Positions 36,999-41,034 of a stretch of 41,034 bases of DNA are shown here, in pieces; the first letter of the stretch is position 1, and every line of letters begins with the position of its first letter. The position numbers were made by a program, and so were the translations under genes. Under the pieces are notes generated by a model that saw only the letters and a list, made by a program, of their open reading frames with translations, was not told the DNA's origin and made no database searches. The DNA comes from Bacteroidota bacterium (lineage in GTDB: Bacteria; Bacteroidota; Rhodothermia; Rhodothermales; UBA10348), in the NCBI GenBank assembly GCA_022571255.1, contig JACZYD010000011.1, positions 1 to 41,034 of the forward strand, in the 5' to 3' direction.

Positions 36999-38393
36999 TT
37001 ATTTTCCTGCAGCCGCCAGCATTTCCTCAACGGTCGTCAATTTCACACGCGGTCTTCCGCTTTTCTGGCCCGCGCTGGTCTCCGCTTCATTGATTGTTTC
37101 CCAGTCAGAGTAGGAAATCCACCGAGGTTGTTTTTCTGAAACCATGTGTTGAGCGGCATCGATCGTCGCCTCTTCCGGGTGGAAATGATTTCCTCGCCGC
37201 AGATCCTCCAACATATGGTCGACCGTTTCAAAGGCATCCTGCTTGTTTGTCCCGATGACTCCAGTAGGTCCTCTTTTTATCCACCCGCCAACGTAGCATC
37301 CGATCACCTGCTGTCCCGATTCTTCGACGACTTTTCCTTCCTCATTTCTGACGACTCCCCAGTTTTCATGAAACGGCAGGCCCGGCACAGCCACACCCCG
37401 GTATCCTACAGAGCGAAACAACAGACCTGCCGACAATTCCAGTTTCTCACCGGTAGGACAGGCTCCCAGCCTGTGCTCGCCTCGTACCAACTTGTTTCTT
37501 GCGAGAGATATGGAAGAAACGCCTCCATCGTCGCCTGCTATGATCTCCGCAGGAGACAGCAGGAATCGGATAAAACACGTTCTTTTGGCCTCCGATCTTG
37601 ATCCGCCGACGAAAGAATTGATGATTTCCAGCTTTTTCATCGTCATCCGATCGGGGTTCTCCTCAAGACTTGCCTTGCTCAAGTCGTCCAATTTTGCCTC
37701 GTCCGCAAGCACTTCCGTCGATGCGTCTGAAAGTTGACCCATTTCCTTGATTTCAGGAAGCGTAAAGGCGGCCTGCGCCGGGCCACGTCGACCGATCATA
37801 TAAATGGCACGTACACGACTTTTTGAAAGCGCTTCAAGTGCGTGATCTGCGATATCAGTCGCAGCCAGTTCGTCAACGGTCTTGCACAATATTCTCGCCA
37901 CATCGATTGCCACATTTCCCATTCCGATAATGACTACCGATTCCTGCGAAAGATCAAAAACCAGTTCTCGATAGTCCGGGTGTCCGTTGTACCAGGCGAC
38001 AAATTCGGTGGCTGAATGACTTCTGGGAAGGTCTTCGCCCGGTATGCCGAGTTTCCTGTCTACTGCTGCACCGGTGGAAAAATACACATGGTGATAGTGT
38101 CGTTTCAGATCAGACAGATCGATATGGCGTCCATATTCCACATTTCCAAAATACCGGAAAGAAGGATTCGCGGCTGTGCGGTCAAAAATGCGCGTCACGT
38201 TTTTGATTTTTTCGTGATCCGGAGCGACTCCTGACCGGACCAGGCCGTAAGGAGTTGGAAGCTTTTCAAACATATCAACCTCAGACATGAACTCTGTCTG
38301 TTTCAGAAATCGCTCTGCAGCATAAAAGCCGGCCGGACCGGACCCAACGATTGCGATGCGTGCGGGATTGGACGAAGAACCTGGAGAGGTCAT
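36999..38393 (-). CDS. Ferredoxin--NADP reductase, adrenodoxin-reductase/FprA-like
   Basis: ATG at 38393: MTSPGSSSNPARIAIVGSGPAGFYAAERFLKQ...MFEKLPTPYGLVRSGVAPDHEKIKNVTRIFDR; VVIIGMGNVAIDVARIL; GWIKRGPTGVIGTNKQDA. Confidence 0.92.
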   Translation of the reverse strand: MTSPGSSSNPARIAIVGSGPAGFYAAERFLKQTEFMSEVDMFEKLPTPYGLVRSGVAPDHEKIKNVTRIFDRTAANPSFRYFGNVEYGRHIDLSDLKRHYHHVYFSTGAAVDRKLGIPGEDLPRSHSATEFVAWYNGHPDYRELVFDLSQESVVIIGMGNVAIDVARILCKTVDELAATDIADHALEALSKSRVRAIYMIGRRGPAQAAFTLPEIKEMGQLSDASTEVLADEAKLDDLSKASLEENPDRMTMKKLEIINSFVGGSRSEAKRTCFIRFLLSPAEIIAGDDGGVSSISLARNKLVRGEHRLGACPTGEKLELSAGLLFRSVGYRGVAVPGLPFHENWGVVRNEEGKVVEESGQQVIGCYVGGWIKRGPTGVIGTNKQDAFETVDHMLEDLRRGNHFHPEEATIDAAQHMVSEKQPRWISYSDWETINEAETSAGQKSGRPRVKLTTVEEMLAAAGK

Positions 38394-38535
38394 AAATCGT
38401 GACGCTGAGTCATAGAGCTTTCTGTTACGCGTGCGGCAAGTTATAACATTTCTATAAAATCTGGCCCCATCAATTCGGTCGTCAGCGAAACAGACCTTTG
38501 ATCCGTTTGTTGAGAGGCAGAACCGTCTCTTGAAG

Positions 38536-41034
38536 ATGGCTGGCGTAACCGGTAAGAGAGAAACGTATCGAAGGACCATCTTGCGGAAGACATCTGCGTT
38601 CATTTCGGTCTGTTCAAAGATTTCAGGGTGGAATAACAGCCTGGTATTTGTTCTTGGCTTATTGCTGGTTGGTGTGGCGTCTGCACAGGACCGTGAAGAA
38701 ATCCAATTCCCGTCAAAAACCGATACGTTGCAGGTTTTCGGACAGGGGCCGTTCCTGATTCGTCCTTTCTTGATTTCGGGCTCTGTAAGCGTGCGGATTG
38801 CAGACAGACAGCTCACAGAATCCGAATATTCCATCGACTATCGACGTGGCTTCATTGAGTTGCCGGATGTCGAATCGGGTCAAGAGCTCCAACTCATCAT
38901 TTCGTATAAGTATATCCCGATAGAACTGGCGACCAGTATCCGGCTCTGGCCACTCGTTCAATACCCGTCTGCCGACAAAGGGAAACAAGTTTCCCCGTCA
39001 CCGGTCACGTCGCGGTCTGTCGCAGCTTTTTCACCGAATCGCCTCCATTCCAGTGGATCGATTACTCGTGGTCTTTCCACAGGAACAGGGCAATCCGTTG
39101 GAATCGAATCCGGGCTCCGCATTCAGGTCGATGGAGAAATCCTGGACGGATTATTCCTGCGTGCGGCTCTCACCGACGAGAATACTCCAATTCTCCCCCA
39201 AGGGACGACTCGCCAACTCAACGATTTTGACAGGGTATTTATAGAGTTGAAGTCCAGCAGGGGAACGTTGCAACTGGGAGATTTTGATTCCCGGATTGAC
39301 GGAGGTCGCTTCGGCCGTCTGTACAGAAAACAACAGGGAGTCATGGCAACTGGAAGTATTTCAGCCGAAAACGGGATTTTCAATACCGCTACGGTTCGAA
39401 TCTCAGGTGCGGTCTCTCGTGGAATATTTCGAACCCAGCGCATTCAGGCTATCGACAGAGTGCAAGGTCCATACAGACTTGAAGGGCAGAACGGTGAGCG
39501 TTTCATCATTGTTATTCCGGGTTCAGAGAGCGTTTATCTGAATGGTGAACGACTTACACGGGGCGAAACAGAAGACTTTGTCATTGATTATGAAACCGGG
39601 GAAATTACATTTACCCCTCAACGAATCATCGGAGTTGATTCAAGGATCACCGCGGAATTTGAATACACGACAAGTCAGTTTACCCGTACGATGCTTGCCG
39701 CCGATGTCACTTCCTCTTTCGGCCGAATCGTCGACGGATCCGAGCGATTCAGCTTCGGAGCCACTCTGCTTCGAGAGACGGATGGAGAAGAATTCAGCAA
39801 TGAATTCGGCTTGACTGAAAAAGACATCGAGAACATCGAAAGAGCCGGGGATGATCTTGCCTTCAAAGGCGGAGCAATACCGGTGATCTATGATCCGGAA
39901 GCCTCTTTTACCCAATACCTGATCGAACAGCGCTTTGACGCAGATAACGAGCCTGTCAATATTTTCGTCGCTATTACGACGACGCCTCCTGATACATCAG
40001 TCGTGTTTCGTGTATCGTTTACACGACTGGGAACAAACCGGGGAAGTTATAAAAGAACGGGGCTCTCCACCAACGGAATAGCTTTCGAATATGTCGGATC
40101 TGACATGGCGGACTACGAACCCATTCAAATCCTGCCTTCTCCTGTTCTACAGCAACTGATAGATTTCCGAGGGCAACTGCGACCGTTTTCGAAATTCAGG
40201 ATTTCGGGTGAGTGGGCCGCTTCTGTAAACGACCTGAACCGACTTTCCGACCTTGACAACGCTGACAACAGCGGAAATGCGTACGACATTCGGGTCCTTG
40301 TAGATCCGTTCAATCTCGAGATCGCAGGCCGGTCACTCGGCGCCCTGAACGGAGCAGTATCCCGGCGTTTCCGGTCCGAATCATTTCGGACATTCAGCCG
40401 AACACGACCGATAGAGTTCACCCGGGACTGGAATATCAGAGGGCGACAAATAGACGTCCCCGGAGGTGTACAGGGGACGGAAAGAGAACTCGAGAGTGAA
40501 GTAAGAATGGGGTTGGACTGGTCCGATTCATCTTCTGTATCTGCCAGTTTATCCAGTATCAGACTGAGCGAATCGTTTGATGGATCGCGAGCGACCGGAT
40601 CGCTGACTATCAGGCGCAGCGCAGCGACACAGGCTTCTTTCGGTATCCAGTATATCGACACCATCGACAGAACAATTGAACAGACCGGAACGTGGCTCAG
40701 GCAGCAGGGCCGACTCTCGTATGGATTCTTCTCTGACCAGATTCGACCCTTTATATCCGTCGAGCGAGAAAATCTCGAACAACGAGATATGGCGTTCTTA
40801 GGGCTGTTAAAGTCAATTGGCATCGAAAAGGGTGCACGATTCAATCCGAGCGATCGACATCAGGAAATTTTTGCGGATGCCGCCAGAGAAGCGCACGAAT
40901 ACATGATTGAGAATTATCTGGATAGGGTTACTCCCCCCTTCTATCCTGATAGCGAATGGTATAGCGCCGTGCCTGTCAATGGCGTACCGACTGGCTTTGA
41001 TTGGGATATGCCAAACTACTTGGACTACGATGGT
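38536..41034 (+). CDS. Large exported surface/outer-membrane-type protein, open at window end; last ~85-95 codons resemble DUF1254
   Basis: ATG at 38536 opens an 833-codon frame without a stop to the window edge (not in the ORF track, apparently because it lacks a stop). N-terminus contains NNSLVFVLGLLLVGVASAQ. C-terminal part reads RDMAFLGLLKSIGIEKGARFNPSDRHQEIFADAAREAHEYMIENYLDRVTPPFYPDSEWYSAVPVNG. Confidence 0.75.
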   Translation, partial: MAGVTGKRETYRRTILRKTSAFISVCSKISGWNNSLVFVLGLLLVGVASAQDREEIQFPSKTDTLQVFGQGPFLIRPFLISGSVSVRIADRQLTESEYSIDYRRGFIELPDVESGQELQLIISYKYIPIELATSIRLWPLVQYPSADKGKQVSPSPVTSRSVAAFSPNRLHSSGSITRGLSTGTGQSVGIESGLRIQVDGEILDGLFLRAALTDENTPILPQGTTRQLNDFDRVFIELKSSRGTLQLGDFDSRIDGGRFGRLYRKQQGVMATGSISAENGIFNTATVRISGAVSRGIFRTQRIQAIDRVQGPYRLEGQNGERFIIVIPGSESVYLNGERLTRGETEDFVIDYETGEITFTPQRIIGVDSRITAEFEYTTSQFTRTMLAADVTSSFGRIVDGSERFSFGATLLRETDGEEFSNEFGLTEKDIENIERAGDDLAFKGGAIPVIYDPEASFTQYLIEQRFDADNEPVNIFVAITTTPPDTSVVFRVSFTRLGTNRGSYKRTGLSTNGIAFEYVGSDMADYEPIQILPSPVLQQLIDFRGQLRPFSKFRISGEWAASVNDLNRLSDLDNADNSGNAYDIRVLVDPFNLEIAGRSLGALNGAVSRRFRSESFRTFSRTRPIEFTRDWNIRGRQIDVPGGVQGTERELESEVRMGLDWSDSSSVSASLSSIRLSESFDGSRATGSLTIRRSAATQASFGIQYIDTIDRTIEQTGTWLRQQGRLSYGFFSDQIRPFISVERENLEQRDMAFLGLLKSIGIEKGARFNPSDRHQEIFADAAREAHEYMIENYLDRVTPPFYPDSEWYSAVPVNGVPTGFDWDMPNYLDYDG

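Follow-up and report, generated by a model that had tools for sequence, protein, structure and literature searches.

The window, i.e. the whole stretch of 41,034 nucleotides that was analysed, is the complete contig C196 of a draft genome (G000) that consists of 205 contigs and has a completeness of 99.24% and a contamination of 1.78%. Since the window is the whole contig, position 41034 is a true contig end. A single reading frame on the plus strand is stop-free from 38530/38536 up to this last base, and its translation terminates in ...RPFISVERENLEQRDMAFLGLLKSIGIEKGARFNPSDRHQEIF...NYLDYDG. The features that concern us here, including one on a second contig of the same genome (C44), are the following:

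36999..38438, minus strand: FAD-dependent oxidoreductase/ferredoxin-NADP reductase-like neighbour (named by reading its sequence), the synteny anchor on the window side
38536..40770, plus strand: surface-protein gene, 5' part (~62% of a normal length of ~1200 aa), with matches in relatives
40768..40790, plus strand: join zone, codons E-N-L-E-Q-R-D, which fit both HENLxQR of the surface proteins and E-x-I-E-E-K-D of the DUF1254 family
40771..41034, plus strand: apparently foreign tail, ~87 codons in the last ~260 bases, corresponding to the inter-domain region of a DUF1254/DUF1214 protein and cut by the contig end
C44:7512-6241, minus strand: surface-protein gene, 3' part (last 423 aa), with an orthologue match

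The first part of the frame belongs to a surface or outer-membrane protein family of this order. Residues ~35-750 align with relatives from a family of ~1200-aa surface proteins, with 54% for the orthologue from the same genus and 34-50% for other relatives, and the gene was matched in 59 of the 60 genomes searched (G000 and its relatives). The gene neighbours are also the same as in the rest of the family. What the C196 copy lacks is the last ~450 residues, which in the window are not continuous with the N-terminal ~750 and all but ~40 of which were found on C44. Among relatives whose matches extend far enough, the homology nearly always ends at residue ~746-757 of the window frame, and the orthologous frames, usually ~1200 aa long, run on beyond the C196 break. 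Considered as a whole (38536-40770 plus G000:C44:6241-7512), the gene is conserved throughout the order, and its neighbours were stable in those relatives that were checked.

No Pfam or NCBIfam family scored above cut-off for this surface protein. A DUF2460/phage-tail assignment for the body of the frame was rejected, as the matches were weak, below cut-off, and covered ~50 residues. The type IX secretion translocon SprA/Sov (TIGR04189) was rejected as well, with 23 bits over ~90 residues in the window frame against a curated cut-off of 200 bits; the orthologue L012 scored 26.9 bits, and the weak likeness (23-27 bits) is confined to a stretch of ~70-90 residues. The true SprA/Sov translocon of the genome is a full-length protein of 2667 aa on contig C60 (L057:1468-9468, minus strand) that scores 1773 bits. 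The C-terminus of the surface protein showed a weak likeness to the beta-barrel porin PF07642, below cut-off. Judged from sequence, the surface protein may represent an undescribed outer-membrane protein family that is partly related to the type IX translocon.

The initial annotation had held that this surface-protein frame turns into DUF1254-like sequence, and this was borne out by comparison with individual homologues. A phmmer search matched the tail to VPA0735 (PDB 2p3y, 3vb9; chain residues 253-324) with E = 8e-8, and full-length DUF1254/DUF1214 proteins were matched at up to 48% identity with E = 1.8e-17. Across the DUF1254/DUF1214 proteins (PF06863 plus PF06742, represented by VPA0735), the tail corresponds to the inter-domain stretch at 30-51% identity. 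It carries the R-D...L...GIEKG....P motif of this stretch and has its invariant columns in common with four full-length proteins. In contrast to those proteins, the tail comprises only ~87 residues, covers neither Pfam domain, and has no start and no stop. Searching Pfam and NCBIfam with the tail alone returned no match, because the tail falls between the two Pfam models: in the homologue L050, DUF1254 occupies residues 98-231 and DUF1214 residues 380-486, while the tail matches residues 269-340. An HMM search without DUF1254 similarity had been named beforehand as an outcome that would speak against the annotation. Pfam was indeed silent, but only owing to this inter-domain position, so that the test would have misled. 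As had also been noted from the sequence, the N-terminal DUF1254 domain is missing: PF06863 is absent both from the frame and from the whole genome. The same applies to the C-terminal DUF1214 domain (PF06742), which in the gene that gave rise to the tail would lie past the contig end.

With a full-length DUF1254/DUF1214 homologue as query against the draft genome, the tail itself was the sole match. Within the phylum, the tail was matched at E <= 1e-4 in 6 of 397 genomes, one of them being G000. The other five matches lie in open frames of ~490-560 aa, and the two of these that were scanned are both ordinary DUF1254/DUF1214 proteins. When a five-sequence alignment was used as query against a collection of 85,462 species, the nearest relatives of the tail were found in metagenome-assembled genomes from other phyla, namely of Desulfobacterota (L058, 51% over all 87 aa) and Woeseiaceae (45%), where the tail-like stretch is located mid-frame in intact frames of 473-484 aa; these distances are too large for a donor to be named. 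The tail alone as query found no relative in the same contig collection, and among plasmids the tail had no match at the nucleotide level. With a GC content of 0.482, the tail is near the body (0.508), so GC alone would not mark the tail as foreign and base composition is indecisive. Altogether, the tail apparently comes from another organism and is not part of the G000 genome. A separate, ordinary-looking DUF1254-type gene is present in another genome of the same order (G051, contamination 4%; L041:2846-4498 on contig G051:C76), and this was the sole clear match to the tail among the relatives in the 60-genome search. Its presence is compatible with lateral transfer and with contamination alike.

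Protein alignments from both sides place the switch in homology at about 40768-40790, a stretch of ~20 nt that lies inside the range of ~40,745-40,790 proposed from the sequence alone. At this point the surface-protein orthologues read HENLKQR or HENLRQRD and the closest DUF1254 relatives EEKIEEKDLTFLG, while the window reads RENLEQRDMAFLG. The frame stays open across the join because both genes encode a similar motif there (40768-40788) in the same register, and a join made where two genes briefly share sequence would be expected to show just this.

The missing end of the surface-protein gene was recovered with the C-terminal 468 aa of the orthologue L012 as query, which matched G000:C44:6244-7500 on the minus strand with 49% identity over 417 aa (E 3.6e-124). 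C44 is a contig of 7514 bp in which the frame of the surface-protein gene is open to the contig end, encodes 423 aa, and has a normal stop. In the orthologue alignment, 38-39 residues (~120 nt) separate the last window residue from the first C44 residue in nearly all sequences. A query covering this gap found the C44 side only, and no other part of the assembly contained the ~120 nt. The end of the window does not overlap with C44 at the DNA level, two chance 11-mers being all that they share, and a gap of ~120 nt therefore remains. As these nucleotides are missing from the assembly, the intact gene was deduced from its two ends together with synteny. The organism itself very probably has an intact surface-protein gene, made up of window positions 38536 to ~40770, the ~120 missing nucleotides, and C44:7512-6241 on the minus strand.

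Comparison with syntenic loci in relatives had been suggested as a check, and it turned out in agreement with this arrangement: the C196 genes, the intact surface-protein gene, and the C44 genes are contiguous in both G002 and G007. In G002, one contiguous stretch leads from homologues of window positions 31.7-38.4 kb through the intact gene to homologues of the C44 genes, which from reading their sequences we take to be MurA-, cysteine desulfurase-, fructose-bisphosphatase-, homoserine kinase-, and threonine synthase-like. The oxidoreductase, the intact surface-protein gene, and the C44 genes are arranged in the same way in G007, while in G001 the gene order is supported on the window side and, in part, on that of C44. 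The homologue of 36999..38438 adjoins the surface-protein gene in all three genomes (64-69% identity). The true continuation of the gene is thus located at a second contig end, in an order that relatives confirm.

These observations bear on whether the frame could encode a functional domain fusion, in which a beta-rich surface protein carries a DUF1254/DUF1214-type C-terminal module. The initial annotation had kept a real fusion as its alternative, and the continuous frame is all that speaks for it. However, no surface-protein orthologue bears the tail, and no fusion was seen in the relatives even though the gene itself is present in 59 of the 60 genomes. The tail moreover begins mid-protein, without a DUF1254 domain, and would take the place of the surface protein's ~450 C-terminal residues, a region that is conserved among family members and is to be found on C44. 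With the true C-terminus located there, a functional fusion is contradicted, and we consider it close to negligible. Somewhat less remote, yet still very improbable, is a genuine recombination or insertion event, in this strain or in a minority strain, which would have placed a foreign DUF1254/DUF1214 fragment inside the surface-protein gene at a true junction; C44 would then derive from other cells with the intact gene. This is consistent with the open frame across the join and the similar GC on both sides, and DUF1254 genes may plausibly be gained laterally, given that one occurs in G051, a genome from the same order. Three findings speak against it. The other half of the surface-protein gene starts at the end of C44, in the register that would be expected; the 99%-complete genome showed no further piece of a DUF1254/DUF1214 gene; and the position of the join, at a motif shared by the two proteins, is the one that a short-overlap join would predict.

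The 3' end on C44, the contiguous synteny of the relatives, and the absence of a fusion or of any other DUF1254/DUF1214 part are three independent results that together support a chimera, which the initial annotation had already preferred. We are therefore highly confident that the end of C196 is a mis-joined contig end, an assembly artefact rather than a gene fusion, and that the locus is biologically ordinary and holds nothing new. A piece of a DUF1254/DUF1214 gene of another organism would have been joined to the broken end of the ~1200-aa surface-protein gene, presumably at the ~20-nt stretch where both genes look alike. Either a short overlap of k-mers or a read that was itself chimeric could have produced such a join; we infer that its origin lies in the assembly or in the preparation of the library rather than in a living cell.

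This result removes a false fusion protein, and it illustrates a route that needs no reads: locating the missing gene end at another contig end, measuring the gap against orthologues, and comparing synteny. It is also a warning that draft genomes and databases can come to contain chimeric proteins with an unbroken frame where a contig ends in a short foreign piece. Chimeric contigs are a recognised artefact of metagenome assemblies, and GUNC addresses chimerism in prokaryotic genome assemblies (PMC8201837). A gene-level lineage check would be unlikely to flag a tail as short as that of C196. Compared with such chimeric contigs, C196 is alike in carrying lineage-inconsistent sequence on one contig, but differs in that its foreign part amounts to ~260 nt at the contig end, far below the scale of whole foreign genes.
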